64,000 bases of DNA, taken from positions 1,957,409 through 2,021,408 of the forward strand of contig NZ_CP036264.1 of assembly GCF_008035925.1 (NCBI RefSeq). Direction: 5' to 3'. The stretch comes from Stieleria maiorica. Lineage in GTDB: Bacteria; Planctomycetota; Planctomycetia; Pirellulales; Pirellulaceae. Position 1 is the first letter of the stretch, and every line of letters starts with the position of its first letter. This document shows, one piece after another, positions 1 to 48,139 of this stretch. The notes under the pieces were generated by a model. It made no database searches. It had not been told where the DNA came from and worked only from the letters and a program-made list of their open reading frames with translations. The translations under genes and the position numbers were made by a program.

Positions 1-2104
1 GTACGCCGAGTGTCTTGATCAATTCGGCACGCCGGCGTTTCAGCCATTGCACGCGCGGCGAACCGGTGCCGTCGAGTGTCACATGGTGCTCGGGTGCGAC
101 GGGTTGTTCGAGCGTCCGAAGCTCGGCCAGTGTGGCGTCGATCAACGCTTGCAGCCGAACCGGATCGGACGCGAAATCGCCCAGTGGCAGGTGGCCGAGG
201 TCAGGTGATCGGAGCATGGGATCCAGCGCTGCACCCGTGGTGAACGCCGCGCCGGTGGCGATCGGGGCAGCGCCGATTGGGGGCACCATTCGACGCCGCA
301 ATTGCGACGCTCTGGCGAGACAGCGGTCCAGTTGTGCGGTGACTTGTTCCAGCTCTCGGCTGCGTGCCAGCGATTCGCCGTCGAGGTGATTGATGTACCA
401 AGCCGACCAGGTTTGTCGATGGTAGGTGTCGTCCAGCCAGGACGGATAACGCACCAAGTCAGCCAGCTGTCGGTTGCGAACCAAACTTTCCCGATAGGAC
501 AGCAGTCGCTCGATCGTCGCAACCACCCACTGCTCGCTGCGGCGCAAGTCGTCCACTTCATGTTCTCGGCGTAGTGCGATCGCACGCTCAGCGGCACGTG
601 TTTGTTCGGCACGTGTATATTCAGCACGCGCGGCAAACCGAAATCCCTGGCGGCGAACGTTTTGCAGGTCTTCGCGAATCGCACGCAAGGATCGCACCAA
701 GGATCCGCTGCCGCGATAGGTCAATTCGCTTGGCAAGTCGCGATACCAAGCGGAAGCGAGTGAATGCGGTTGATCGTAGCGTGCGGCCAGCCAGTCGACT
801 TGGCGAACGATCGCTTCGATTCTCAAGTCGATCTCGTCGGGCCAACGCGTCGTGTGGCCGTCAGCGGCAAACGCTCCCCATGACGTCGCAACGGTGGGAT
901 CGGCGGCGTGATGGTCCAGCGCCCACAGGAAATGATGCATGCGTCCGCGACGCAGCACCTGCTCGGACATCGGCAACGTCCCAAGACCGTCAAAGGTTCG
1001 GCGCAGGTCCCAACGGTTTGCATCCGAAGCGACCATCTCGCGCAAGCTGGATAATTCGGTCATCACGCGACGCCAACGCGTGATTTGGGCGTCGACATCG
1101 ATCAGTTTGCGACGCAGTTCGGCGTCCATTTCCAGCGCGGCGGCCGGCGGGATCGATGCAACGCCGAAGAAGTCGTCGTTGGAGTGGCGGGCATAAGGCG
1201 ATGCCGTGATCGGCGCGGTGTATCGGGCACGATTGCGGTCGGATTGCAGGTGTGCCAGCCAGCGAGAAAGTTCGCTGTGGCGGACACGCAGCTGCCAGAT
1301 TTGATCATGAAGCTCGGCCAGTTCGCCTTCGATCGGCCAGCCGGCGGCATTCCGCTGTGTCGATTGCAACTGTGCCGATTGCAACTGTGCCAGACGCGAC
1401 TGCAGGTATCGGCGGCGGGCGGCGATCGATGCTCGTTCACGCAAATCGGCGGAATCTGGGGCGTCTGCCGATCCGTTCCGGGACAATTCGATCGATGCCA
1501 ATTCCGTTTCGATTCGTGCCAGCTCGTCGCGCATTGCCCGCCGTGATGTCTGTTGGTCGGCGGTCTCGGCCGGCGAAAGCCCGCTGACGGCCGAGCGATT
1601 GAGCGGCAATCCGGCGAACAAGGCCGGGTCGCCAAGTCCGCTGCGCAGGCACGCGCTGATGACGCGTGAAACGCTGGTCACGGCGGTGTCGGTCAGGATG
1701 CCGTCGACGATCGATTCGGGGATTCGAATCGATTCCAGGGCACGCGTCGCGTCGGTCGAATCGGCGATCCCGTTGATCCAGCTGCCGTGTAGCCAATCGA
1801 ATCGATGGGCCGCTTCGCCGCGTGATTCGAATTCGATCGTCCGCCGTCCGCTGGAGGTCCCGTCGTGCTCGCGACGGCAATGGATTTTTCCGTTGCGATC
1901 GGCCCAGACCACGCGGCCGGCCGAAGAGCTCATCATGCCCAGCGGATACTCGCGACGAATCAACGAGTCGCGAACGAAACGGACGATCGCGGTTTTCCCA
2001 GACCCTTCGGGCGCGCAAATCACGTTCAAGGCTTCTGAGAAAGGCCCCAGCTCGACACGAGTCAGGGGGCCGTGGGTGTCGATATCGATCCGGTCCAACA
2101 ACAT
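1..2104 (-). CDS. P-loop ATPase with long helical region (SMC/RecF/YhaN-like), C-terminus beyond the window
   Basis: The open frame runs from an ATG at 2104 off the left edge, giving about 700 visible residues. The start is set by a strong ribosome site (AAGGAGGAG at 2112-2120 on the minus strand, 7 bases before ATG). Residues 1-45 read like the N-terminal lobe of an SMC/RecF-type ATPase: strand, then the Walker A motif APEGSGKT near residue 32. The rest is long, charged, Arg- and Glu-rich helix with repeated L/R/E patterns, as expected of a coiled-coil arm. The second nucleotide lobe (signature and Walker B) would lie off the window. Such proteins usually act on DNA ends or chromosomes. That role is inferred from the family, and the exact subfamily is not recognised. 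It is divergent from the lipoprotein gene to the right. Confidence 0.7.
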   Translation of the reverse strand, partial: MLLDRIDIDTHGPLTRVELGPFSEALNVICAPEGSGKTAIVRFVRDSLIRREYPLGMMSSSAGRVVWADRNGKIHCRREHDGTSSGRRTIEFESRGEAAHRFDWLHGSWINGIADSTDATRALESIRIPESIVDGILTDTAVTSVSRVISACLRSGLGDPALFAGLPLNRSAVSGLSPAETADQQTSRRAMRDELARIETELASIELSRNGSADAPDSADLRERASIAARRRYLQSRLAQLQSAQLQSTQRNAAGWPIEGELAELHDQIWQLRVRHSELSRWLAHLQSDRNRARYTAPITASPYARHSNDDFFGVASIPPAAALEMDAELRRKLIDVDAQITRWRRVMTELSSLREMVASDANRWDLRRTFDGLGTLPMSEQVLRRGRMHHFLWALDHHAADPTVATSWGAFAADGHTTRWPDEIDLRIEAIVRQVDWLAARYDQPHSLASAWYRDLPSELTYRGSGSLVRSLRAIREDLQNVRRQGFRFAARAEYTRAEQTRAAERAIALRREHEVDDLRRSEQWVVATIERLLSYRESLVRNRQLADLVRYPSWLDDTYHRQTWSAWYINHLDGESLARSRELEQVTAQLDRCLARASQLRRRMVPPIGAAPIATGAAFTTGAALDPMLRSPDLGHLPLGDFASDPVRLQALIDATLAELRTLEQPVAPEHHVTLDGTGSPRVQWLKRRRAELIKTLGV

Positions 2105-7567: not shown

Positions 7568-8756
7568 CTCGTTCCCAGGCTCCGGCCTGGGAACGCGAGG
7601 CCGGGGAGGCTCCCGCCTCCGGCGGCGTTGCTGAGGCCGGAGCCTCAGGGCAGCGCGTGACGAGGCCGGAGCCTCGTCACGAGTATCCCGCACTCGTTCC
7701 CAGGCTCCGGCCTGGGAACGCAAGGTCGCGGAGGCTCTTGCCTCCGGCGACGGTGCTGAGGCAGGAGCCTCAAGGCAGCGCGTGACGAGGCCGGAGCCTC
7801 GTCACGAGTATCCCGCACTCGTTCCCAGGCTCCGGCCTGGGAACGCAAGGTCGCGGAGGCTCTTGCCTCCGGCGACGGTGCTGAGGCAGGAGCCTCAGAG
7901 GCAGCGCGTGACGAGGCCGGAGCCTCGTCACGAGTATCCCGTACTCGTTCCCAGGCTCCGGCCTGGGAACGCGAGGCCGCGGAGGCTCTTGCCTCTCCGA
8001 CGGCGTTGCTGAGGCAGGAGCCTCAGTGGCAGCGCGTGACGAGGCAAGAGCCTCGTCACGAGTATCCCGTGCTCGTTCCCAGGCTCCGGTCTGGGAACGC
8101 GAGGCCGCGGAGGCTCTTGCCTCCGACGGCGTTGCTGAGGCAGGAGCCTCAGTGGCAGCGCGTGACGAGGCAAGAGCCTCGTCACGAGTATCCCGTACTC
8201 GTTCCCAGGCTCCGGCCTGGGAACGCGAGGTCGCGGAGGCTCTTGCCTCCGGCGACGGTGCTGAGGCAGGAGCCTCAAGGAAGCGCGTGACGAGGCCGGA
8301 GCCTCGTCACGAGTACCCCGCACTCGTTCCCAGGCTCCGGCCTGGGAACGCAAGGCCGGGGAGGCTCTTGCCTCTGACGATGGTTCTGAGGCCGGAGCCT
8401 CAGGACAGTGCGTGACGAGGCAAGAGCCTCGTCACGAGTATCCCGTACTCGTTCCCAGGCTCCGGCCTGGGAACGCAAGGCCGGGGAGGCTCTTGCCTCC
8501 GACGGCGTTGCTGAGGCAGGAGCCTCAGTGGCAGCGCGTGACGAGGCAAGAGCCTCGTCACGAGTATCCCGTGCTCGTTCCCAGGCTCCGGCCTGGGAAC
8601 GCGAGGCCGCGGAGGCTCTTGCCTCCGACGGCGTCGCTGAGGCCGGAGCCTCAGTGGCAGCGCGTAACGAGGCAGGAGCCTCGTCACGAGGGAAGACGAG
8701 ACCGGAGCCTCGTCACGAGGGAAGACGAGACCGGAGCCTCGTCACGAGGGAAGAGG
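7568..8756. repeat. REP-type hairpin repeat array, downstream block (9 units)
   Basis: Units of 125-128 bases begin at 7568, 7693, 7818, 7944, 8072, 8198, 8323, 8448 and 8574, each starting CTCGTTCCC. After the ninth unit (about 8690) two further partial copies of the last hairpin (GAGACCGGAGCCTCGTCACG) follow. Each unit holds the same four AGGC/GCCT-core hairpins as the block before the transposase gene. Loops alternate between types such as AAGA, CCGG and AGGA, which keeps the stems intact. The array ends just before the 3' end of the minus-strand TM2 gene. Confidence 0.95.
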
Positions 8757-8771
8757 GAAGGAGGGCACGGT

Positions 8772-9215
8772 TCAGATCTCCGCGTTCAACTCATCGACCT
8801 GTTCGTTCAGCGTCAGCAGGTCATACACGAACCCGACGCCGAGCAATCCACCGGTCAGCAGGAACAGCACCCCGGTGAAGATCTTGCCCAGGTACAACCG
8901 GTGGACGCCGAACAGTCCCAAGAACGTGTGCAGCACCCAGCAGATGGTGTAGTCAAACCGGCCCGGTCGATAGCGACGCGAGGCATCGTCGGCCATCGAG
9001 GGGATCAGAAACAGGTCCACAATCCAGCCGATTAACAGCAATCCACCGGTAAAGAACCAGATCGCGCCGGTGACAGGACGGCCGAAATAAAACCGGTGCG
9101 CTCCGAAGATGCCCAGAATCCAGTACAGGTACCCGATCAACACCGGGTGGGTCGGAGCCGTCACCTCGGTCGCGGTCTGGCCTGGGTTTGTGTAAAGGTC
9201 GGTCGTAGCGTGCAT
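8772..9215 (-). CDS. TM2 domain membrane protein (two TM2 modules)
   Basis: The 147-residue protein contains two TM2 units in tandem. The first reads YWILGIFGAHRFYFGRPVTG followed by a hydrophobic FFTGGLLLIGWIVDLFLIP. The second reads HTFLGLFGVHRLYLGKIFTG followed by LLTGGLLGVGFVYDLLTL. Four membrane segments are expected, with a short soluble N-terminus. The G-x-H-R-F/L-Y motif is diagnostic of the family, whose biochemical role is unsettled in bacteria. The start at 9215 is the first ATG before the first TM2 unit. The gene is divergent from the GT2 gene across a 300-base gap with no other visible feature. Confidence 0.9.
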   Translation of the reverse strand: MHATTDLYTNPGQTATEVTAPTHPVLIGYLYWILGIFGAHRFYFGRPVTGAIWFFTGGLLLIGWIVDLFLIPSMADDASRRYRPGRFDYTICWVLHTFLGLFGVHRLYLGKIFTGVLFLLTGGLLGVGFVYDLLTLNEQVDELNAEI

Positions 9216-37074: not shown

Positions 37075-39837
37075 CTATCCATTCTCGTCTTGCTTCCGAT
37101 CTCGAGGATTCTGGGGCCGACATGGCGGTAATACTTTGACGACAAGTGCAGTGATATCGTCTTCCTGCGGACGGTGGTCAGCAAAGTCACGTGCCGCGAG
37201 AAAGAGAGCATTGACGATTTGAGCAGCGGACATTCTCCGGTTGGTGCGAACGACGTTGAGCATTCGTTCCTGACCGAACTCTCTCCCTCCGGGACTCATC
37301 GATTCCTCGGTACCATCGGTCGGCACCACAAGCGTGTCGCCGGTTTGCAAGACAATCGCCGGTGCGGAGGAAATGGCTGCGTTCAATTCGACGCCCAGTG
37401 GATAGCCTGTCGAACCGAGCACTTGCGCCGCACCATTGCTTCTGACGAGGTATCCCTGGTGCCCGGCACCGGCGTACACGAAGGATCGCGTCGCTGCGTC
37501 GAGACGGCCGAGAAACGACGTGACGGTGTGTCCGGTGTCGCTGTTTCCGAAGAGCCGATTCGTGTTGGTCAGCAGTTCGCCGGGATCAGAAGAGTTCTCG
37601 GCCAGTGCGTGCAAGTAGGCCTGGGTTTGAGCCTTCAGCAAAGCCGCTCCCAATCCATGGCCGCTGACATCCGCAACAATAACGCCGACCGAGTCCGGTC
37701 CGAGAGAAATGAAGTCGAAGAAGTCTCCGCTGACTTGTTGGGCAGGATGCACCGCGCCGGCGATATCAAAACCGAGTAAGCAGGGTGCGGCTGCCGGGAA
37801 CAGGGCCCGCTGCACCATGCGGGCGGCTCGGATCGATGCGGGATCAGCTTCACTGCGTTTCTCAACCAAGATGCTGTCGTCGGTATCGAAGGCGGCCGCC
37901 GCAATGCGTGAAGCTTCTGCGGCTGCGTCCAGGTTATGGTTGGCTCCGGATAGCAGCTCCCTTTCTTTGACAACTCGATGTTTCAAAGCGATGTTCGTTT
38001 CACGCAGCAACTTTCGCTCGGCAGCAGCTACGGCGATCGATCGCGACTGCGCTTCGATGGTCGTGGTTCCCACATCGTCCTGCTGGCACGTCCTTTCATC
38101 AGCCGAACGCGTCGCAATCAACTTGCCCGATCGCAGTGTGCCAATCAACTGTTGCACTTGTCGCGGAGATTGGCAGCGAAGCGCCGAGTCAGCGACCCGA
38201 CGTGCCTCACATTGGCTAATGTGTCGTATCGCATGTCGCACGGCCCCGGCGCGCGACGGTCCCAAGCTGAGCTCACGAATTCCCAATCCGACAAGCAGGC
38301 ACGCGAAGTCCGCGTCCCCTGCCTCCTCGCCGCAGACGCAAACGGAACATTGCTGCTTTTCTGCAGCCTCCACAACTTGTTGGATTGCACGTAACACAGC
38401 TGGGTGCATCGCCGTGCAGTCGTCTGTCCCCTGAGACAACTCACGATCAGCTGCCAGCATGTACTGCGTCAAGTCGTTCGTACCGATCGCGACAAAGTCG
38501 GCCAATGCAAGGATCTCGTCCAAAGCAAATAACGCCGCAGGTGTTTCAATCATTGCGCCGACGGAAGGTCGACGGAGAACATCCAGTTGCCGCACGGCGC
38601 GATCGACAGCCTCGCTCGCTTGTGCAAAATCGTGGCTCCCGATCACCATCGGAAACAAAATGCGAACATCTGTCGTTTGTGCGACCTGAACAATTGCCCG
38701 CAATTGGGCATCCAGAAGATTCTTTTCAGAGAGCGAAAATCGTAGTCCACGCAGGTGAAGACTCGAACGATTTCTTATTTCATCGAGTGCAAGGAAAGGA
38801 GGGAGCTTGTCACCGCCGAGATCGAAAGTGCGAATTGTCATCGGCAAACCGATTAACTTGCTTGCCATGTCGCCATAGACGTGCAACTGCGAATCGAAGC
38901 TCGGACGCGATTGCGATTCGATAAATAAGAACTCGGTGCGAAACAACCCGACTCCGGTCAAGTGATGTTTCGCGACCTGATTGACTTCGTCGGGCAATCC
39001 AACGTTCGCCATTAATGAAATCTCCACTCCATCGAGCGTCATACACGGCTGCATTTCTTCCGACAGTAGTGACGCGATCTGCCGTTCGTGCTGGAGCTGA
39101 CGAACCGAGAAGGCAGCCTTCTCAGGTTCGGTTGGCTGTATCGTTACGACTCCCGTCAAGCCATCGACAAGCAGCATTGCGCCGGACTGAATCCGAGAGG
39201 TGATGCTGAAGATGCCTGAGATCGCCGGAATCCCCAATGCTCGGGCAACGATTGCGGTGTGACTGAGCTTTCCTCCATCTTCACAAACGATCGCGACAAC
39301 ACCGCTATTGGCAAGCCCGACCGCTTCGGACGGAAGCAGTTCGCGGGCTACGATCACGGATCCTGGCGGCAACGAATCACAACTCCACGGCGTCGTGCCT
39401 GCCAACGCGCGCGTCATCCGCTGGCCTACGTCTCGGATGTCTTGTTCACGTTGCCGCAAGTACTCGTTGTCGAGCTGTTGCAATCGGCTGATCCAATCGC
39501 GGATGACAGAATCAAGGGCCTGTTCCACATTGACAAGGTCGCATCCAATCTGCTGCTTGACGGACACCGCAATCTCGCTGGCCATCGCGGCGTGAGCAGA
39601 CAACAGTGCAGCTGCGTCGGCGAGTTTTGGATCGTTGTTTGCAATTTGCTCAGCGGTTTTTAAATCTCGTTTGGACTGTTCAAGCGCATCATCCATCCGA
39701 TCGCATTCAACTTGCACATCAGAATGCTGTATTTCACGAACCGGCAATAACAGCTTTCGTTCAACTTCATAGCCGTAAACGATCGCAATTCCACTTGCAA
39801 ATCCGGGTGAGACGGGACTCCCTTCCAATACTGTCAT
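37075..39837 (-). CDS. PTS enzyme I fused to a SpoIIE/PP2C phosphatase
   Basis: The protein has 920 residues from the ATG at 39837, which has the ribosome site CAGGAAAGAGAA; the frame is open to 39921. Residues 1-560 are a complete PEP-protein phosphotransferase: GGKLSHTAIVARALGIPAI with phospho-His193, GLFRTEF, RTFDLGGDK, IGTNDLTQYMLAADR and the active-site CGEEAGD (Cys502). After a helical linker (about 590-660), residues 665-905 form a SpoIIE-type PP2C: GDFFDF (Asp705), ADVSGHGLG (Asp723), PTDGTEE (Asp841) and EDDITAL. All core residues of both halves are present. A phosphatase output driven by PEP status is the natural reading, but no HPr gene lies in the window. The target may be the STAS-like protein at 29876-30310. 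Confidence 0.9.
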   Translation of the reverse strand: MTVLEGSPVSPGFASGIAIVYGYEVERKLLLPVREIQHSDVQVECDRMDDALEQSKRDLKTAEQIANNDPKLADAAALLSAHAAMASEIAVSVKQQIGCDLVNVEQALDSVIRDWISRLQQLDNEYLRQREQDIRDVGQRMTRALAGTTPWSCDSLPPGSVIVARELLPSEAVGLANSGVVAIVCEDGGKLSHTAIVARALGIPAISGIFSITSRIQSGAMLLVDGLTGVVTIQPTEPEKAAFSVRQLQHERQIASLLSEEMQPCMTLDGVEISLMANVGLPDEVNQVAKHHLTGVGLFRTEFLFIESQSRPSFDSQLHVYGDMASKLIGLPMTIRTFDLGGDKLPPFLALDEIRNRSSLHLRGLRFSLSEKNLLDAQLRAIVQVAQTTDVRILFPMVIGSHDFAQASEAVDRAVRQLDVLRRPSVGAMIETPAALFALDEILALADFVAIGTNDLTQYMLAADRELSQGTDDCTAMHPAVLRAIQQVVEAAEKQQCSVCVCGEEAGDADFACLLVGLGIRELSLGPSRAGAVRHAIRHISQCEARRVADSALRCQSPRQVQQLIGTLRSGKLIATRSADERTCQQDDVGTTTIEAQSRSIAVAAAERKLLRETNIALKHRVVKERELLSGANHNLDAAAEASRIAAAAFDTDDSILVEKRSEADPASIRAARMVQRALFPAAAPCLLGFDIAGAVHPAQQVSGDFFDFISLGPDSVGVIVADVSGHGLGAALLKAQTQAYLHALAENSSDPGELLTNTNRLFGNSDTGHTVTSFLGRLDAATRSFVYAGAGHQGYLVRSNGAAQVLGSTGYPLGVELNAAISSAPAIVLQTGDTLVVPTDGTEESMSPGGREFGQERMLNVVRTNRRMSAAQIVNALFLAARDFADHRPQEDDITALVVKVLPPCRPQNPRDRKQDENG

Positions 39838-39984
39838 TTCTCTTTCCTGTTCGTCGAGTATGAAACTTTTGTGAGCGATGCTGCCAACGGTAGCATGAGT
39901 TGGTTTAGACCCATCACGCATATTTGCCGATGACCGTCGTATGGACCTCCGACAAACTCAACCCTGAACATCTTTCTGGATCTC

Positions 39985-40230
39985 CTAACCGTTTGGGTTG
40001 ATCTTCTCTGCTACCCGCAGCTGGTCGACAACACGCCGGATTCCCTGCACGGCCGCGACACATCGAACGATCGGTTTGCGCTCGTGTTCATGCCTGAGCG
40101 TTCCCGTGATGGTCGCATCACCGCTCCGAACTGTCGCACTGATTCTTACGCTTCCGACACATTTCTGCATCAATTTACGTTCGACATTCTTTAGGAGCGT
40201 TTTGTCAGAGGTTTTGTTGCCAAGCGTCAT
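39985..40230 (-). CDS. Small BON domain protein
   Basis: The 81-residue protein is a single BON domain: LLKNVERKLMQKCVGSVRIS, the strand GDATITGTLRHEHER and the final IVRCVAAVQGIRRVVDQLRV. It has no signal peptide, so it is cytosolic or peripheral. Its ATG overlaps the stop of the YHS gene by four bases. BON proteins are tied to envelope and osmotic stress in other bacteria (family knowledge). Confidence 0.85.
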   Translation of the reverse strand: MTLGNKTSDKTLLKNVERKLMQKCVGSVRISATVRSGDATITGTLRHEHERKPIVRCVAAVQGIRRVVDQLRVAEKINPNG

Positions 40231-41039
40231 GGTTCATTCCTAAGTGAAACCGGTGCTGTGCAGCCCGGATCAACAGTTGAACCGAAAGGGGCACCGAGGT
40301 AATAAGAAGGGCGTTCGTCGAATAAGCGGCAGGATTCCTCGGTGAAGAAATGGAGAGTCAGTCCATGCCGTTCTCGAATATCCGAAGCCATGGATTTTGG
40401 AAACGGAATCCCAAATACTGGATCGGTCACCAAATGCTTCCTTTGATACTCGCGATGAAAGAAAACATCGAAATACGTTTCCACAAAACCAACGAGTTTC
40501 GCATCGATCCAATCGATCACGCACGTATCGGTTTCGTCAGCGATCGGAATGGTCAATTGGTCGCGAGCAGCGAATCTCACGAAAACAGGAAGAACCTGCA
40601 TGCGGTATTCGACAACCGCGGTCTTGACGTCGGTGTCATGAAAGACACGAAGAGAAAACTCCATTGCCTTGTGTCGTGTCGCGGAAATCGGCAGAGTGAT
40701 CGTTGTGATACTGCCACTGGATCTCGTTCCCGCTGTGCAACCAATGCCATCGCCGTCTGTCAACGTTGCGTCGCTGAAGATGCTCTGGCTTGTCAAGACT
40801 CCCAGGCGATCATCAATGATTCTCTTGATTTGCTTTTGAGTTGCGGCAAAGTGAATCATTCGCTCCTCGTGCTTGGAAAACTCGGTGACGGCTTTCTTCC
40901 GCATCAATCGAAGGCGATCTTCAGCATTTTCAATCAATGTGATGAATCGACCGGCAAGATCTGTTGTCGAATGACTTGACTGGACTCTTGTGTCACCGCC
41001 GGAGCTTGCGATGCTCGTGCTAGATGCGCGGTTTTGCAT
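40227..41039 (-). CDS. Protein with C-terminal YHS domain, novel N-terminal part
   Basis: The 270-residue protein has N-terminal 60 residues that are low in complexity, a helical middle (about 40-80) and a beta-rich section of unknown type (about 100-205). The end (about 210-260) is a YHS domain: TDPVFGIPFPKSM, LTLHFFTEESCRLFDERPSYYLG. The usual second cysteine of DPVCGM is replaced by Phe (DPVFG), while the later Cys remains, so metal binding may be altered. It overlaps both neighbours (20 bases with CsbD, 4 with BON), consistent with tight co-translation. Confidence 0.7.
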   Translation of the reverse strand: MQNRASSTSIASSGGDTRVQSSHSTTDLAGRFITLIENAEDRLRLMRKKAVTEFSKHEERMIHFAATQKQIKRIIDDRLGVLTSQSIFSDATLTDGDGIGCTAGTRSSGSITTITLPISATRHKAMEFSLRVFHDTDVKTAVVEYRMQVLPVFVRFAARDQLTIPIADETDTCVIDWIDAKLVGFVETYFDVFFHREYQRKHLVTDPVFGIPFPKSMASDIRERHGLTLHFFTEESCRLFDERPSYYLGAPFGSTVDPGCTAPVSLRNEP

Positions 41040-41307
41040 GACGATAGCTCCGAATGTTTTCCCAACAACGTTGAGGCCATGAAAGAATTTTCGACCGCTC
41101 TGTTTGAGCCTTCAATTCTTGCACGAACGCGTCTACTTTCCGTTCGGCTTCCGCTCGGCCGTCTCCGTATCGTTGTTCGAGTAGCTTCACAAACGTGTCT
41201 CGCTGGCCGGAGATCATGGCAAGATCTTCGTCTGTGAACTTGCCCCACTTAAGCTTGACTTGTTGGCTGACCGACGACCAATCGCGTTTCACCTGATCCC
41301 ACTTCAT
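41020..41307 (-). CDS. CsbD-like small stress protein
   Basis: The 95-residue protein matches the CsbD pattern: an N-terminal WDQVKRDWSSVSQQVKLKWGKFTDEDLAMI and EQRYGDGRAEAERKVDAF. CsbD proteins are induced under general stress in Bacillus and others (family knowledge); their mechanism is unknown. It is the first gene after the leader RNA element at 41386-41505 and heads the operon that leads to the EI-PP2C and GH130 genes. Confidence 0.88.
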   Translation of the reverse strand: MKWDQVKRDWSSVSQQVKLKWGKFTDEDLAMISGQRDTFVKLLEQRYGDGRAEAERKVDAFVQELKAQTERSKILSWPQRCWENIRSYRHAKPRI

Positions 41308-41385: not shown

Positions 41386-41505
41386 AAAAAAAAACGGTGT
41401 TGCGGAACACTCACTAGAGTTCCGCAACACCGGTTTACTTTTTAACTAGCCCCCTGGATCTGCCAGGTTGCTCTTTATTCAGTCATCCGAAACGATGGCC
41501 GCACG
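41386..41505 (-). ncRNA. Structured leader / small RNA candidate A with intrinsic terminator
   Basis: On the minus strand the order is a conserved stretch (AAAGAGCAACC), a CCTGG/CCAGG stem, GGGGGCTAGTTAAAAAGTAA, then a perfect 14-base stem (CGGTGTTGCGGAAC at 41395-41408 with 41419-41432) with a 10-base loop, and nine T residues. The CsbD start lies 79 bases beyond the T-tract. The same order, with variable stem sequence, occurs at 47284-47440. It could be an attenuator for the operon or a separate small RNA. The predicted transcript is about 115 bases to the T-tract. Confidence 0.7.
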
Positions 41506-41512
41506 ATGTAAC

Positions 41513-41541
41513 AGTATACGACATCGAGTTGCAAAAAACAA
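41513..41541 (-). promoter_or_regulatory. Sigma70-like promoter of leader A
   Basis: The minus strand shows -35 TTGTTT (41536-41541), a 17-base spacer, and -10 TATACT (41513-41518). The predicted start is near 41505, just before the conserved leader. Confidence 0.55.
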
Positions 41542-41659
41542 GTCGCGGGGAATTACATTGAGCACCGAGAGGTAGCTGACAGTACGCACTCGATGTATGC
41601 AGCCACTTCATCGTCGATGTGACTTCGTTTTATTGAAGACGAATACGCGACCGTGTGCG

Positions 41660-42472
41660 TCACCCAGGGACTTCGTCGGCCCAAACCTTGAAGGACTCCA
41701 ATTCATTCGCTCCAAAAGTAGTTGTGAGCGCCGCGTCTGCCGCATCGCGTCCACGCGCGATCAAGACACGACCAATTCGCGGTACGTTGTTGCGAGGATC
41801 AAAAGTGTGCCACTTTCCACCCAGATACGCTTCGAACCACGCGCAGAAATCCATAGGGTCATGTGTCGGCGTTACGCCGATATCGCTGAGATACCCGGTG
41901 CAGTATCGGGCTGGGATATTCATACAGCGGCAAAGCGTGATTGCCAAATGCGTGTAGTCTCGGCAAACACCGGTGCGTTCGTGAAACGCCTCAAGCGCCG
42001 TCCGGTTCGCGCGGGCCTGCTGGTAGTCAAAACCAAGATGCTGAAAGACAAAGTTGCAGATCGACTGCACGCGCTGCCAGCCGGGGGGAGTCGAATTGAA
42101 TAGATTCCCCGCAAGATCCTTCAAGTCGCTGTCTACCTCGCAGTAGCGGCTGGCGAGCAAGAATATCAGTACTTCATCGGGTAGGTCCTGAACGCTGTGC
42201 TGCACCGCATTCCACAACTGCTGATCTGATTGTCCGCAGTCCTCAACGGTAGTGTCGTTTCGCAAGGTAACGCTTCCAGCGGGAGCGAAAAGGCGGCTGC
42301 ATCGATTGCCAAATGAATCGACGAATTCTGAAACCGATGTATCCGGATTTACCTCGAAACACTCGGGTGTTTGGATTGTGGAGGCGCGGGACGGATGCAC
42401 ACTAAGCAACGCTAGCATCGCGGTGGGTTGGGAGAAACAGAAGGAAATTTCAAAGCCTACACGGATTCGCAT
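41660..42472 (-). CDS. Transglutaminase-like cysteine peptidase family protein
   Basis: The 270-residue protein starts at the ATG at 42472. The transglutaminase-like core shows the Cys motif ERTGVCRDYTHLAITLCR, then ARYCTGYLSD and the His/Asp motif GKWHTFDPRNN, giving a Cys-His-Asp triad. The N-terminal 100 residues form the usual beta-rich lead domain. No signal peptide is seen, so it is likely cytosolic. Family members cleave or cross-link amide bonds; the substrate is unknown. It is the last gene of the MpsC-FloA-GroEL operon. Confidence 0.88.
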   Translation of the reverse strand: MRIRVGFEISFCFSQPTAMLALLSVHPSRASTIQTPECFEVNPDTSVSEFVDSFGNRCSRLFAPAGSVTLRNDTTVEDCGQSDQQLWNAVQHSVQDLPDEVLIFLLASRYCEVDSDLKDLAGNLFNSTPPGWQRVQSICNFVFQHLGFDYQQARANRTALEAFHERTGVCRDYTHLAITLCRCMNIPARYCTGYLSDIGVTPTHDPMDFCAWFEAYLGGKWHTFDPRNNVPRIGRVLIARGRDAADAALTTTFGANELESFKVWADEVPG

Positions 42473-42539
42473 CATCGATCCCTTTTGAAGTTCATGAACT
42501 TGTCTAGCCTGTGCACGCTGAAAATAACCTGCGCATTGG

Positions 42540-43457
42540 TTACTTCAGCAATCGGATCGCGTGACGCAATACATCACAACGGCTGATTTGGCCGACCAAC
42601 CTACGTTCTTCAAGTACAGAGAAACGACGATAAGGGGATTGAAGAAAGAGCTGGGCTACTGAAAACAAATCCATTTCAGGATCGATGGAGTGAGAAGTCG
42701 TATCAGCGAAGGCTTTCACGCTGTGATCAGACAACATCCCGTAAGCCGCAAGGAATGTATCCGCTGCAGGAAGACTTGACTCGCGTTCGGTCTGCGGCAG
42801 GTCTAGGCGGTGTCGCAGGATACTTGAAAGTATGTTGGAGTGGTTGAGTACGTCGCGCCGTGAAATCTGCCCGATGATCCGATCGTCTCGCACAACCGGC
42901 AAGCGAGCGTAGGACGTTTTAACGAATATCCTCGCAATTGCGTGCAAGTCCGTATCGGCATTGATGAGCCGATTACTGTCCGGATCAATGAATCCGCCAA
43001 CCTTCGCCGAAGGGATTTCGCTGTAAGCGGCCTCAATGACGAACCCCAAACAGGTCCTTTCCGAGAATATGCCGAGGAATTCTCCATCGGAGGCAATGAC
43101 AGGTGCGCCGGAATATCCCATCGCAAGCAATGATGACATCGCGTCAAATACGTCTTCCCCAGGGTCCAGCGTAAATAATTTCTTGCGAGGAATCATTACA
43201 TTGGAGGCTTTTGGAGGATCTCGTTTCGATGCATCAATCAACTCGATGAGGGAAGCCAGAACGCGCATACAGCACTTCTCAGAGAACATCCCAAGGTACT
43301 CGCCGTCTTCATTGACGATTGGCATCTCGGAATACTGTCGTGTGAGAATTTCGTGGATTGCAAGTGGTACCAGGGTATCGGGTAACAGTGTTTGAATATT
43401 CGGCATCATGATGGCTCTGGCGAGCGGCACCTTGATTGGGTTTGATTTTGTTTTCAT
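42540..43457 (-). CDS. Four-CBS domain protein
   Basis: The 305-residue protein is made of two CBS pairs. The repeats are visible as SEMPIVNEDGEYLGMFSEK, SGAPVIASDGEFLGIFSER, ARLPVVRDDRIIGQISRRD and RRFSVLEERRLVGQISRCD. CBS pairs bind adenine nucleotides and regulate partners (family knowledge). There is no attached enzyme domain, so it is a stand-alone sensor. It lies between the GroEL/hypothetical pair and the transglutaminase in one operon. Confidence 0.92.
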   Translation of the reverse strand: MKTKSNPIKVPLARAIMMPNIQTLLPDTLVPLAIHEILTRQYSEMPIVNEDGEYLGMFSEKCCMRVLASLIELIDASKRDPPKASNVMIPRKKLFTLDPGEDVFDAMSSLLAMGYSGAPVIASDGEFLGIFSERTCLGFVIEAAYSEIPSAKVGGFIDPDSNRLINADTDLHAIARIFVKTSYARLPVVRDDRIIGQISRRDVLNHSNILSSILRHRLDLPQTERESSLPAADTFLAAYGMLSDHSVKAFADTTSHSIDPEMDLFSVAQLFLQSPYRRFSVLEERRLVGQISRCDVLRHAIRLLK

Positions 43458-43565
43458 CGCATGTTTCTTATGGGTGGGGTGTGTTAACCAGGTACACCTG
43501 GTCTTGTTCGATTTCGTTCGGCGGAATGACGTACTGGTCCGTAATGAGTTCGCGGACCAAGATTG

Positions 43566-44009
43566 CTACCCCCTCTGCGACTCTTTTGGGCTGTTCGTGA
43601 CGCCCAAGTCAGAAGAGGCGTTCTCGACGCGGTAGGCCTGTGAACCAGGGTCCAACATTAAATGGAACGAAATAGTTACCCGTTCTGATTCTTGTTCCTG
43701 AGCTGTCAAAACAGATTTCATGGTTGTTGCATTCAATTGAGTCTCATTCGGTCCTTCAGCATCGACCACTATCAGGTGAATGGCATTGCCCGAATCAGTG
43801 ATCTGATTCTTCAAATAGCCTTTCACAAGCGGGTAGGGTGTCAGCGCGAGATTGCTATTGGCACAAAACAGGTCGTAGGTTGGCTTGTCCGAAAACCCAT
43901 ATATTGCCACACCCTCGGGTCCGAGATGTGGGCGTAGAAGCTTCGGACCGAGACGCTGCTTTCCGTCGAGCAACACGTAGTATGGGGTGTCAACTAATTG
44001 AGCAGTCAT
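43566..44009 (-). CDS. Hypothetical protein
   Basis: The 147-residue protein has the ATG at 44009 preceded by AAAGGAATC. The first half has strand-rich text (YYVLLDGKQRLGPKLLRPHL, GVAIYGFSDKPTYDLF) and the second half VTISFHLMLDPGSQAYRV. No family is recognised. It is located 23 bases after groEL in the same operon. Confidence 0.65.
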   Translation of the reverse strand: MTAQLVDTPYYVLLDGKQRLGPKLLRPHLGPEGVAIYGFSDKPTYDLFCANSNLALTPYPLVKGYLKNQITDSGNAIHLIVVDAEGPNETQLNATTMKSVLTAQEQESERVTISFHLMLDPGSQAYRVENASSDLGVTNSPKESQRG

Positions 44010-44032
44010 GGTTGATTCCTTTGCGTGTCGTT

Positions 44033-45601
44033 TCACGGCGTTTTTGTGATCAGCACATCGCTGGTGAGCAGCAGGGTGGACACACTGGCCGCGTTCTGCA
44101 ATGCACAACGAACGACCTTCGCGGGATCGATGACGCCCGCGACCATCAGGTCTTCGAAGCGATCTTCGGCAGCGTTGTATCCACAGTTGCCTTTCGCCGC
44201 GGCGACCTTTTCACAGATCAAGCGACCGTTCCCGCCAGCGTTCTCGGCAATCCATGTCAGCGGTGAGCGGCAAGCGCGAAGCACGATGTCGTAACCTATC
44301 TGTTCATGTTCGTTCAGATCAGTGCGTTTGCAGCCCGCGGCGGCGCGAAGGAGGGCAACGCCGCCACCTGGAACGATCCCCTCCTCGACCGCAGCACGCG
44401 TCGCATTCAAGGCGTCCTCGAAACGTGCTTTCTTCTCTTTAACTTCCAATTCGGTTGAGCCCCCGACGCTGATCGTGGCAATGCCTCCGCAGAGTTTCGC
44501 TTTCCTCGACCGCAATTTCTCTCGATCATAGCCTTGGGTCGCTTTCTCAAGCTCGCTCTCGATCTGAGCGATTCGGCCTCGAATGCCTGCCTTCGTCCCT
44601 GCGCCGTCGATGATCGTTGTGTGGTCCTTATCGACAATTACTCTTTTGGCACTGCCGAGTGAGTCGAGACCCAGATTCTTCAATTGCAGACCGAGACTCT
44701 CGGAGATGTTTTGTGCACCGGTCATGATTGCGACGTCTTCCATCACTGCCTGACGAAGACCTCCATAGCCCGGCGACTTCACGGCACAGCAAGTGAATGT
44801 TCCTCGCAAACGATTGATCACTAGCGTCGTCAACGGTTCACCCTGCACGTCTTCGGCCACGATCAACAGCGGTCGGCCGGCCTCCGCAACTTTTTCAAGT
44901 AGGGGCAGGATCTCCCGGACGCTGGAGATTTTTGCTTCGTGGATCAAAACATACGGATCCTCCAAGACACACACCATCGATTCCGGATGGTTGACGAAAT
45001 AGGGTGATAGGTATCCTTTGTCAAATCGCATCCCTTCGACCCAATTGACTTCGTTGTCGACCGCTTTCCCGTCTTCGATCGTGACGACGCCTCCGGAGCC
45101 AACCTGCTCTAAGGCATCGGCGACTGTCCTTCCGATCGTCAAGTCGTTATTGGCGGCAATCGATGCGACCTGAGCCATCGCCTTTTGTCCCTTGGTCGCG
45201 ATCGAGATCGATTTCAGGTGACTAACGACGTCGGCAGTTGCCTTTTCGATGCCGTCTTTTAGGCCGACTGGATTGACTCCGGCGACTACTGCTCGCAGCC
45301 CCTCGTTGAAGATTGCATCTGCCAAAACCGTTGCGGTTGTCGTGCCATCGCCCGCCACCTGGTTGGTTTTGGACGCAACTTCGCGAACCATTTTGGCGCC
45401 AATGTTTTCGTTCGCGTCTTCCAATTCAATGGCGTTGGCAACGGTGACGCCGTCTTTGGTAACTGTTGGGGGACCAAACGAGTTCGCGAGCATTACCGTA
45501 TGGCCGCGCGGGCCCAGTGTGCTGCGCACGGTTCGCGCGAGTTGCCCCACTCCGCGCCTAATTGCTTCTCTCGCTTCTTCGTGAAAGATCATTGTGGACA
45601 T
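44033..45601 (-). CDS. GroEL-type chaperonin paralogue without GGM tail
   Basis: This 522-residue group I chaperonin is recognisable throughout: [26 protein letters not shown] (ATP-site Asp), [62 protein letters not shown] and YGYN-type text as [13 protein letters not shown]. The protein stops at SDVLITKTP, so the flexible Gly-Gly-Met tail of normal GroEL is absent. No groES or CIRCE element lies nearby. It is embedded in a stress operon between FloA and a hypothetical protein, pointing to a specialised paralogue. ATPase residues are intact. Confidence 0.93.
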
Positions 45602-45632
45602 CTTGGTTCCTTTATGTGATTTGTTGTTCGGT

Positions 45633-46739
45633 TCATTCGTTTTCGTCTCTCACTCTTTGGAACGGATTCGCCGACGAGCCATTATCATCGCCGGCTCCTT
45701 GCGGAATACTTCGACGTTCGAGCGTCATCGGCTGCTTTATTTCATGGCGTCGCTTGCCTTGCGTCCTATCCATTGACGTTGCACGCAACTGTCCTGCGCG
45801 AAATGCATCAGCCAACGCAGCGGGCACCTCGGCCTCGGCAAGCACGAGTTCTGCTTGGGCTTCCTTGACCTTGGCAAGCATTTGTTGTTTTTCAGCCACC
45901 GCATTGGCGCGACGCACTTCGGCCTGGGCTCGGGCAATTCGAGTATCAGCGTTAGCCTGGTCCTTCTGCAGTCGAGCCCCAATGTTTTCGCCAACGTCGA
46001 TATCAGCAATGTCAATCGAGACGATTGAAAAGGCGGTGTTTGAATCCAATCCACGTGCCATCGCACCTTTCGAGATTTGCGACGGCATCTCGAGCACGTC
46101 CATGTGTGAATTCGCTGAGCCGATTGCAGAGACGATTCCTTGACCGACACGCGCGATGATCGTTTCTTCGGTCGCCCCTCCGATTAGTTGATCCAAGTTC
46201 GTACGGACCGTGACCCTCGCGCTGACCAGAAGTTCGACGCCATTCTTGGCGACCGCGCTAAGGGAGTTCGTGCTTTCGTCATCCTGGCGCGGGCAAGAGA
46301 TCACCTTGGGAGAAACACTGGTTTGCACGGCAAGTAGCACATCACGGCCGGCGAGGTCGATCGCGGCTGCACGGTCAAAGTCCAAGACGATTCCAGCGCG
46401 CTGGGCGGCAATGATCGCGCAAACCACCTTCATCACATCGCCGCCGGCCAAGTGATGTGCTAGCAAGCGAGCCGTGCTCATTCCGTCTTCGCGGTCGATC
46501 CGCAAACCCGCCTGCCGGCCCATGACCTTGGCGGTCACGATTAAACGTTGCTCAATCCTCAGGAAACTCATAACGATCAAGCTTTTCATGCTCACGTCTG
46601 CACCCGACATGTACGCCTGAAGCCAGTACGTGCCCCACTTAGCGAACACCACAATGAGCAGCACGACCACCAGGGAAGCGATCAACGCTGCCCCAAGCAG
46701 CAGTTGCAAAGCACCGGGAATCCAAATGTTTGCCATCAT
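45633..46739 (-). CDS. floA: Flotillin-like membrane scaffold protein FloA
   Basis: The 368-residue protein has an N-terminal membrane hairpin ([20 protein letters not shown]), an SPFH-like domain ([28 protein letters not shown]) and a long Ala/Glu-rich coiled coil (about 270-330, [26 protein letters not shown]). It ends with a longer-than-usual charged tail. The pattern is FloA/YqfA (SPFH), which organises membrane microdomains. Its ATG shares a base with the stop of the upstream MpsC gene. Confidence 0.93.
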
Positions 46740-47221
46740 TAGGCACGCTCACTTTCTTCAGAACCATCGGCCTGCGCCGGCAGATGGAATCCGTCATCGT
46801 CAGCTCGCTCCAACGATTCACGGTCACTTCCTTGGTAGGAGCTCAGTTCAGGGGTCAAGATGAACACTTGCACCATCGCGCCCGACTTAAATAGATGAGC
46901 GAGGGTGCCCGCATCTGTTTGGATTTCCGCGGCTTCCTCTCGCACGTCTCGCCCCGTGATGGTCTTGATCTTCTCTCGCATCGACTCAGACGAACTGGCG
47001 AAGAGTTGCCGGTGGAACTCTTGTACCTGTGTTACGCCCGGCGGAGTCTGGGCCAAGGCCTGCTCGGCCGGTGTTAGTACGCCTTCCATGGTCACGACCA
47101 ACGTGTTTTCGCAGAGTGTCGCGGTCACGGTTTTGGGAGCGACTCCCGTCCTCTGGCGTTGCAGCGTACTAGCGACGCGGGCGAGCTGTTGCGTCATTTG
47201 CGACTTCGATTCGTCCATTTG
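46739..47221 (-). CDS. MpsC/DUF2294-like protein
   Basis: The 160-residue protein starts at the ATG at 47221 with a GAGAGA ribosome site; a TTG at 47275 would add 18 residues. The DUF2294 core is seen as [20 protein letters not shown], and [22 protein letters not shown] close to the C-terminal part. The acidic tail of about 40 residues is extra. MpsC is linked to membrane-potential-related bicarbonate/sodium systems in staphylococci (family knowledge). It is the first gene after leader B. Confidence 0.75.
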
Positions 47222-47283
47222 GTCTCTCTCGGCCCATGGGTGTAACACTCGTTGGAGGTGTTCTGCATTAAGCAATTGCGCAT

Positions 47284-47440
47284 AAAAAAACCGACGTGGC
47301 AGAACACTAACGAGCGTTCCACGACGTCGGCTTACTTTTCAACGAACCCCCTGGACTTCCCACTGATGGGGCTCGCCAGATTGTTCTTTATCTTGTCGTC
47401 CGGGGTCTTGGAGTGGAGCGGCTAGTCGAACCGCTCTCTC
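47284..47440 (-). ncRNA. Structured leader / small RNA candidate B with intrinsic terminator
   Basis: The minus strand holds AAAGAACAATCTGGC, an inserted small hairpin (CCCA/TGGG), CCAGGGGG, TTCGTTGAAAAGTAAGCCG and then an imperfect stem (CCGACG...CGTCGG, 47291-47330) with loop GCTCGTTAGT, followed by seven T residues. Sequence and order match leader A, but the stem bases differ, including a whole extra helix, which suggests that structure is conserved. It lies 63 bases before the MpsC start and no minus-strand gene lies directly upstream, so it is not simply the end of another operon. Confidence 0.7.
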
Positions 47441-47449
47441 AACTGATTC

Positions 47450-47477
47450 ATCCTATCGCGTCAGATTGAGAAAACAA
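47450..47477 (-). promoter_or_regulatory. Sigma70-like promoter of leader B
   Basis: The minus strand shows -35 TTGTTT (47472-47477), a 16-base spacer and -10 TAGGAT (47450-47455), similar to the promoter of leader A. The -10 is a weaker match. Confidence 0.4.
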
Positions 47478-47758: not shown

Positions 47759-48139
47759 GTGAAAACACAGGGAGAAATCGAAGCTGCCGTCTGCAAAGGA
47801 ATGTCCCATTTCGAGCAGGAGTATATGGGGCGTGGCCCGACGGACATCCGCGCGCATTTGATTGGCGATCTGCTGGTGGTTCGACTGAAAGGCGTATTGA
47901 CCGCCGCTGAGCAGCACTTGGTGAGAACCCTTCCGGCGGAGAAAGGGCGGGACCTGCTGAAACAGGTTCGAACGCAACTGATTGAGACAGCGCGGCCAGC
48001 TTTGGAGACAGTGATCCACGATATCACTGGCGTCAAGCCTCGTAGCTTGCACCACGATATCAGTACCCACACAGGCGAAGAAATCGTCATTTTTACGCTC
48101 CATGAGTCGCCCGCCTATCGTGAGTCAAAAAAGAAGTAG
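47759..48139 (+). CDS. MpsC/DUF2294 family protein
   Basis: The 126-residue protein is a full DUF2294 domain: KTQGEIEAAVCKGMSHFEQEYMGRGP, GDLLVVRLKGVLTAAEQHL, TARPALETVIHDITGVKPRSL and HHDISTHTGEEIVIFTL. It starts with GTG at 47759 behind AAGG. It is the only plus-strand gene of the island's right side and is divergent from the second MpsC-like gene across the leader B region. The two may be parts of one system; function beyond membrane energetics is unknown. Confidence 0.9.
   Translation: MKTQGEIEAAVCKGMSHFEQEYMGRGPTDIRAHLIGDLLVVRLKGVLTAAEQHLVRTLPAEKGRDLLKQVRTQLIETARPALETVIHDITGVKPRSLHHDISTHTGEEIVIFTLHESPAYRESKKK

Follow-up and report, generated by a model that had tools for sequence, protein, structure and literature searches.

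Two structured RNA leaders on the minus strand of a 64,000-nucleotide (nt) stretch of the Stieleria maiorica genome (NCBI RefSeq NZ_CP036264.1, positions 1,957,409 to 2,021,408; hereafter the window, whose own numbering is used throughout) are copies of a real, widespread and structured leader family without a match in Rfam 15. The computed order is promoter-like site, leader, intrinsic terminator and gene, and in predicted folds the basal helix of the leader and the terminator exclude each other. Judged from the sequence, the family is very probably cis-regulatory. Each leader is most likely a cis-acting attenuator of the ON type, that is, an antiterminator, in a planctomycete stress regulon, a reading to which we give a probability of about 0.65; we infer the regulation itself, its ON direction, and both the existence and the kind of a signal.

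How planctomycetes turn on their stress genes is, to our knowledge, poorly understood. A leader RNA common to these operons, with a terminator of its own, would allow the regulon to be defined from sequence, and would provide a small RNA for an in vitro search for the signal.

Leaders A and B

Leader A lies at 41386-41497 and leader B at 47283-47410, both on the minus strand. A first-pass annotation had placed both leaders here with a common motif order, and re-reading the minus strand agrees with it: AAAGA(G/A)CAA, CTGG/CCAG, CCAGGGGG, GTT(A/G)AAAAGTAA, a hairpin edged by GGAAC...AGTGTTC, and a T-run (T9 at 41394-41386 in A, T7 at 47290-47284 in B). The core pattern, allowing up to 3 mismatches, matches the window at these two sites only (mean 0.00, maximum 0 over 100 shuffles), and the folding z-scores are -5.23 for A and -3.74 for B, with 0 of 200 shuffles equally stable in either case. 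Other features that the annotation had described are also present: a TTGTTT -35 element ahead of both leaders; a distance of 60-80 bases to the start codon, which measures 79 nt from the T-run in A (CsbD) and 66 nt in B (MpsC); an extra CCCA/TGGG helix in B (an additional helix in the loop is seen in several same-genus copies as well); and the absence of a minus-strand gene just upstream of B, where the neighbouring gene lies on the opposite strand. Leader A has an upstream neighbour on its own strand, at a distance of 163 nt. The annotated structure is corrected at one point: the CTGG/CCAG stem caps a longer imperfect hairpin (family consensus helices GAGC/GCUC, UAA/GUU, ACU/AGU and UCGG/CCGA), whose last helix overlaps the terminator.

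In leader A, a promoter-like site (41513-41541, minus strand; TTGTTT 41541-41536, 17 nt, TATACT 41518-41513) precedes the receptor hairpin (41428-41492), which is supported by a match of 74.4 bits to the receptor model R2 described below and by family covariation. Its basal helix P1 pairs UCGG 41490-41487 with CCGG 41433-41430, P2 pairs ACU 41483-41481 with AGU 41439-41437, P3 lies around AGC/GCU, and P4 pairs CCUGG 41467-41463 with CCAGG 41457-41453. The intrinsic terminator (41386-41434) consists of a hairpin at 41434-41395 followed by T9, and the 3' strand of P1 forms part of its 5' arm. Leader B is built alike on the same strand: a promoter-like site (47450-47477; TTGTTT 47477-47472, 16 nt, TAGGAT 47455-47450), a predicted upstream hairpin (47411-47440) in a segment that varies among copies, a receptor hairpin with the CCCA/UGGG helix in its loop (47325-47405; R2 match of 60.9 bits), and a terminator (47284-47330) with its hairpin at 47330-47291 and T7 at 47290-47284. 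Here P1 pairs CCGG 47403-47400 with CCGA 47330-47327, and two of the three P2 pairs are kept.

A leader family across the Pirellulales

The first-pass annotation had proposed covariance models and an Rfam search, and had made its reading depend on homologues upstream of other genes and on covariation. Models built from relatives recovered a family, with many members upstream of diverse genes and with strong covariation, and no Rfam 15 family matched in the window at its gathering score. Permissive Rfam scans of leaders A and B returned four matches, all at E 0.35 or worse, and a scan of 10 relatives returned none at E <= 10. The Rfam family RT-12 was rejected as an identity for the leaders (E 9.8; 14.5 bits against the 44.2 needed).

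Relatives were sought with a loose core pattern (3 mismatches) over 98 related genomes; a reversed control gave comparable numbers of matches, so that the pattern is unspecific on its own. The exact core pattern, run over GTDB contigs, matched two contigs of one metagenome-assembled genome, HKST-UBA30 (a Planctomycetales bacterium), and there were no matches in viral contigs with two patterns, nor in plasmids. Inspection of the flanks yielded 20 clear members, which were aligned (A2) and modelled (R1). Left out of A2 were matches judged by eye to have no hairpin and T-run (L003, L004, L007, L008, L010-L019, L021-L023, L025-L027, L029), a copy cut by a contig end at position 6 (L035) and some unretrieved matches. 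At E <= 0.001, R1 found matches in 34 of the 149 genomes searched within the same family; at least one of these (G106) counts through a weak match and a terminator-only match. The richest genome (G123) has a tally of 17, made up of 14 distinct places and three reverse-strand readings of terminators.

We used 52 regions around R1 matches beside 14 earlier ones; when 65 sources were scanned again, 179 matches came up and 106 were kept, the other 73 being weak or overlapping a better match on the opposite strand, where the palindrome of the terminator is read in reverse. A receptor-only model, R2, with 65 positions and built from 96 sequences, matched 76 of the 296 genomes of the order Pirellulales. 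In a phylum-wide draw it matched 7 of 294 genomes, two belonging to the window's own family and five lying outside the order, one of these five weakly; all model searches covered planctomycete genomes. In the host genome, only the two copies described here were detected (R1 at E <= 0.001; R2 at E <= 1, with 150 of 2456 first-look candidates scored), and a BLAST-type search of that genome with leader A returned only leader A and the reverse-strand reading of its terminator hairpin.

Tandem copies, at most 800 nt apart with no called gene between them, form 10 pairs. At L095:10869-11098, L181:8722-8913, L089:6923-7253 and L099:2163-2533, a single gene is preceded by two elements in tandem, both ending in a terminator of their own, as in tandem riboswitches. 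At one locus two elements of equal score (L079:3761-3872 and 8710-8821) are each followed after 29 nt by a 216-amino-acid (aa) gene, the products being identical over their first 45 residues; this pair is apparently a duplication within one genome.

Covarying structure

The element consists of an imperfect hairpin of 65 nt that directly adjoins an intrinsic terminator, and RNAalifold applied to A2 recovered most of both. Over the 32 pairs of the full element in 98 distinct rows, 94.0% of cells are paired, compared with 84.2% in column shuffles and 34-55% when the strands are slid, and 25 of the 32 pairs show double-sided changes (18.6 in shuffles); the alignment used here had been fitted to the model. 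When 94 non-redundant rows were scanned for covariation, modelled pairs made up 19 of the top 25 column pairs. The pair ranked 26th, C16-G100, was absent from the model; it was taken up as helix P2 (ACU/AGU) because it is 99% complementary (CG 85, UA 4, UG 2) and nests with the other helices.

For the receptor P1-P4, a sequence-only alignment of 96 rows gives 91.4% pairing, against 85.3% when shuffled and 23-49% when slid, with double-sided change in 15 of 20 pairs. A second set of 73 rows from other loci, aligned to the model and including five reverse-strand matches, gives 93.4% pairing and double-sided change in 16 of 20 pairs; within it P2 changes from U-A to G-C in 13 rows. Six unpaired bases (A7, G9, A25, G62, G68 and A78) are conserved at 92-98%. 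The scan detected no junction or pseudoknot.

Three further candidates were dropped: a local CUCG/CGAG hairpin as a competing fold, for which there is no covariation; covariation of the 5' segment with the terminator arm, where observed equalled expected in 85 leaders (13 skipped by rule); and a conserved AUG in GGAUGAC, whose U varies to C, A or G.

Position relative to promoters, terminators and genes

Gene context was counted for 165 leaders, 99 of the 106 kept matches (at least 60 bits) and 66 further ones (at least 41 bits), after 7 and 2 weaker ones had been dropped. The gene that follows is co-oriented with the element in 152 cases, on the opposite strand in 7, and missing at a contig end in 6 (same strand 152/159), while the previous gene is divided evenly (77 same strand, 77 opposite, 11 absent). 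In 67 of 68 loci, taken from 40 selected regions of R2 matches in the order and phylum draws, a T-run follows 20-110 nt after the receptor, even though R2 itself reaches no further than the first bases of the terminator 5' arm. The median distance from T-run to start codon is 80.5 nt, with starts called by a simple codon-usage method; in 50 of 152 cases it is 1-60 nt, which leaves little room for another promoter, and in 7 of 152 it is zero or below, probably through mis-called starts.

A promoter-like TTGnnT-16..20-TAnnnT lies upstream of 98 of 159 elements; the mean for Markov sequences is 2.8, and the reverse complements give 1. A stricter form, (C/A)TTGnnTT followed by TAnnAT, is found in 60 of 159, against 4 of 159 for TTGAC followed by TAnnAT, and in those 60 leaders the gap between the end of the site and the element is 2 to 94 nt. 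The terminator thus stands between a promoter-like site and a same-strand gene, as an attenuator requires (98/159, 67/68 and 152/159 for the three components). Under a simple rule, with no shuffled sequences for comparison, 32 of 165 leaders contain an open reading frame (ORF) of at least 6 codons preceded by a ribosome site; a ribosome-mediated attenuator with a leader peptide seems unlikely.

The same geometry bears on two explanations that dispense with control of the adjacent gene. If the element were a free, trans-acting small RNA and the downstream gene incidental, its own promoter-like site and terminator would yield a short separate transcript, and the 7 of 159 downstream genes that are not co-oriented would be no surprise. 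We consider this improbable, given co-orientation in 152 of 159 cases with an even upstream control, starts often within 60 nt, and recurring target families. More improbable still is a spreading repeat, such as a mobile cassette, or a set of plain operon-end terminators with no regulatory role. Copies do cluster, their distribution is patchy, and one pair (L079) appears duplicated, but 25 of 32 pairs show double-sided changes, the terminator is preceded by a receptor and the element by promoter-like sites, the following gene is strictly oriented and the upstream gene is divergent in 77 cases, all of which is hard to reconcile with such an origin. The annotation had kept attenuator, riboswitch and small RNA as classes for the leaders. 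Orientation, the distance from terminator to start, and the mutually exclusive folds described below favour a cis-acting attenuator, which may be a riboswitch or a protein-bound antiterminator, over a free small RNA.

Mutually exclusive folds and a putative switch

P1 uses the first bases of the terminator, and the two folds therefore exclude each other. When the RNA ends just after the 3' strand of P1, the mean pair probabilities over 98 sequences are 0.94 for P1, 0.86 for P2, 0.80 for P3 and 0.87 for P4; in the full RNA the mean for P1 falls to 0.008 and the terminator reaches 0.98. The predicted folds thus include an alternative that excludes the terminator, P1 of leader A going from 0.86 to 0.00.

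With this in mind, one may propose the following sequence of events. A sigma70-like promoter would start the leader transcript, and the nascent RNA would fold into the imperfect hairpin P4-P3-P2, whose conserved internal loops would form the receptor. This would be closed by the short helix P1 (UCGG/CCGA), whose 3' strand would also serve as the first bases of the terminator 5' arm. In the absence of a signal, the more stable terminator would capture the P1 bases, and RNA polymerase would stop before the gene. If a small molecule or a protein that signals stress bound to the receptor, P1 would be held, the terminator would be kept from beginning to form and the operon would be transcribed.

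Several observations weigh against an ON-type attenuator of this design. Truncated leader B prefers another fold (P1 0.28, P2 0.15, P3 0.07, P4 0.10), and its P2 has one mismatch. The full-length fold favours the terminator, and antitermination would therefore need kinetic or ligand help. P1 (YGG/CCGR) is almost without compensatory change, with CGG/CCG hardly varying; pairing is lost in 13 of 96 rows at U3-A84 and in 43 of 96 at the outermost P1 pair, and in 85 leaders P1 pairing is no better than column composition predicts. P1 is therefore unproven by covariation and rests on nesting, conservation and folding. Mean information is 1.32 bits in paired and 0.92 bits in unpaired receptor columns, so that loop conservation is not exceptional overall. 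Finally, 7 of 159 downstream genes are on the opposite strand, and 35 of 152 starts lie more than 200 nt from the T-run.

Two related mechanisms could use the same parts in another way: an OFF-type attenuator, in which the signal favours termination, or an RNA-directed processive antitermination, in which the hairpin modifies RNA polymerase. The ON direction comes from inference only and the full-length fold favours the terminator, both of which such mechanisms would accommodate. We nevertheless regard them as unlikely, since the spacing between receptor and terminator is near-fixed, a feature required by local exclusion but not by an RNA that modifies the polymerase, and since P1 and the terminator use the same bases.

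Genes headed by the element

In the window, leader A heads a CsbD-like gene (41020-41307, minus strand; E 3e-06, with 27.5 bits under the Pfam cut-off of 40). The same-strand genes after it (37075-41039) encode a 270-aa protein without a Pfam match, a BON protein (39985-40230) and a protein that fuses a PEP-utilising part, resembling enzyme I of the phosphotransferase system, to a SpoIIE phosphatase domain (37075-39837). Leader B heads an MpsC-like gene of type 2 (46739-47218, minus strand; PF10057, E 2.1e-22), followed on the same strand (41660-46739) by genes for FloA, Cpn60, a 180-aa ORF without a Pfam match, a CBS-domain protein and a transglutaminase-like protein. On spacing and strand, both runs are presumably operons with their first genes. 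The cold-shock protein that the annotation had suggested might act on the leaders is encoded by a cold-shock domain gene (PF00313; 30583-30789, minus strand) about 10.6 kb from leader A, and no link between it and the leaders was seen.

Elsewhere, the first downstream gene was scanned for 83 of 85 leaders. Among the matches listed, drawn from the 25 commonest of 101 families, there are 17 MpsC, 9 response regulators, 6 PAS, 5 histidine kinase domains, 5 BON, 5 CsbD, 3 FloA, 3 sigma70, 3 glycosyltransferases, 2 baeRF and 2 DUF1328, all as raw tallies. Single cases, scanned separately, include Hsp70, YflT, KaiC, PP2C and acetyl-CoA hydrolase, as well as a phospholipase-D-like enzyme, a rhodanese/beta-lactamase-fold protein, DUF302 and acetate kinase. 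Sigma-70 family genes are headed by the element at L081:4765-5778, L105:2042-3097 and L107:761-1798, hinting that a sigma factor and the RNA element control the same regulon.

Candidate signals and partners

The proposed signal could be a metabolite or ion made under stress that binds the receptor directly, which would make the leader a riboswitch; if the ligand is a metabolite, this would be a riboswitch class for general stress. We hold this view tentatively, somewhat short of even odds. The conservation of some unpaired bases at 92-98%, the tandem copies and a set of functionally diverse targets tied by stress are all in keeping with it, as is the finding that neither CAT_RBD nor ANTAR, two domains of known antiterminator proteins, tracks the element: CAT_RBD occurs in 0 of 296 genomes of the order at E <= 0.001 (4 of 14 control genomes were positive), and ANTAR in 14 of 76 element-bearing and 33 of 220 other genomes (p 0.47). 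The covariation scan, however, detected no junction or pseudoknot, mean conservation is higher for paired than for unpaired columns, and the targets show no theme of biosynthesis or transport that would name a ligand.

Alternatively, an RNA-binding protein, perhaps type 1 MpsC (DUF2294), might stabilise the imperfect hairpin in the manner of LicT or BglG, an explanation that we find rather more doubtful than a riboswitch. A single imperfect hairpin overlapping a terminator does resemble protein-bound antiterminators, and of the 76 genomes with the element 67 have MpsC (PF10057), compared with 22 of the 220 without it (Fisher p 7e-37, uncorrected for kinship among genomes). With types assigned by the better phmmer score, type 1 MpsC is never led by the element (0/64) and lies divergently within 1.2 kb upstream of it in 42 of 64 cases, while type 2 is element-led 43 times. 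Among 42 relatives, type 1 is 64-88% identical to the window copy in 37 and 48-60% in 5. From this arrangement, type 1 MpsC looks like a regulator beside its target, and the candidate partner in the window is a divergent 126-aa gene (47759-48139, plus strand; PF10057, E 3.4e-35). This gene and the type 2 gene (46739-47218, minus strand) face each other, a pairing that recurs across the order.

Set against this, MpsC is undetectable in nine element-bearing genomes, including one that is 99% complete (G004) and one with three copies of the element (G192), and it may be a mere member of the regulon, the counts ignoring relatedness among genomes. Its confidently predicted fold (predicted local distance difference test score, pLDDT, 91.9) has no solved-fold match at E <= 0.001, the best being at E 0.051 with a template-modelling score of about 0.3; it was rejected as a known RNA-binding fold, Foldseek matches being weak only. 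No sequence relative was found in the PDB at E <= 1, and the median isoelectric point of 6.6 is near neutral. The misfit of CAT_RBD and ANTAR, given above, also counts against a protein partner of the known kinds. Were MpsC the partner, a function would be found for a family whose deletion in Staphylococcus aureus (mpsC) is reported to have had no growth phenotype (PMC6689103).

In many Pirellulales, a large part of the stress response may run through a single new class of RNA antiterminator that senses a stress signal and occurs in up to 14 copies per genome, though we say so with some reserve. Such a class would be either a new riboswitch or the first RNA-binding role for DUF2294/MpsC.

Comparison with known systems

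In a literature search that returned listings and the beginnings of abstracts, no description of the leader element appeared. Table 1 of Weinberg et al. 2010 (PMC2864571) includes a candidate motif, Rhodopirellula-1, from Planctomycetes and Proteobacteria; it carries no Rfam accession and has the entries '?' for RNA, 'y' for cis-regulatory and '?' for switch. Rhodopirellula-1 may be the same element as the leader family.

Among established mechanisms, the LoaP and put types of processive antitermination likewise tie a hairpin in a 5' leader RNA to read-through of terminators, but the leader terminator stands at a near-fixed spacing from the hairpin and has bases in common with it. Antitermination by ANTAR proteins also places a hairpin and a terminator before several operons, and some of the targets are response regulators as well. 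In contrast to that system, the presence of the regulator does not track the element, and the leaders have no paired hexaloop architecture. The ribonucleic antiterminators of BglG, SacT and LicT come closer in form, being imperfect hairpins with internal loops that overlap the 5' side of a terminator; they differ in size, about 30 nt compared with about 65 nt for the element, and CAT_RBD is found in none of the 296 genomes.

Transcriptional ON riboswitches, such as the pbuE adenine and crcB fluoride types, are like the leaders in that the 3' strand of the helix closing the receptor belongs to the terminator, in heading many operons and in occurring as tandem copies. The leaders differ from them in having no Rfam match at gathering score, in being a single imperfect hairpin, and in heading stress targets rather than the genes of one metabolic pathway.

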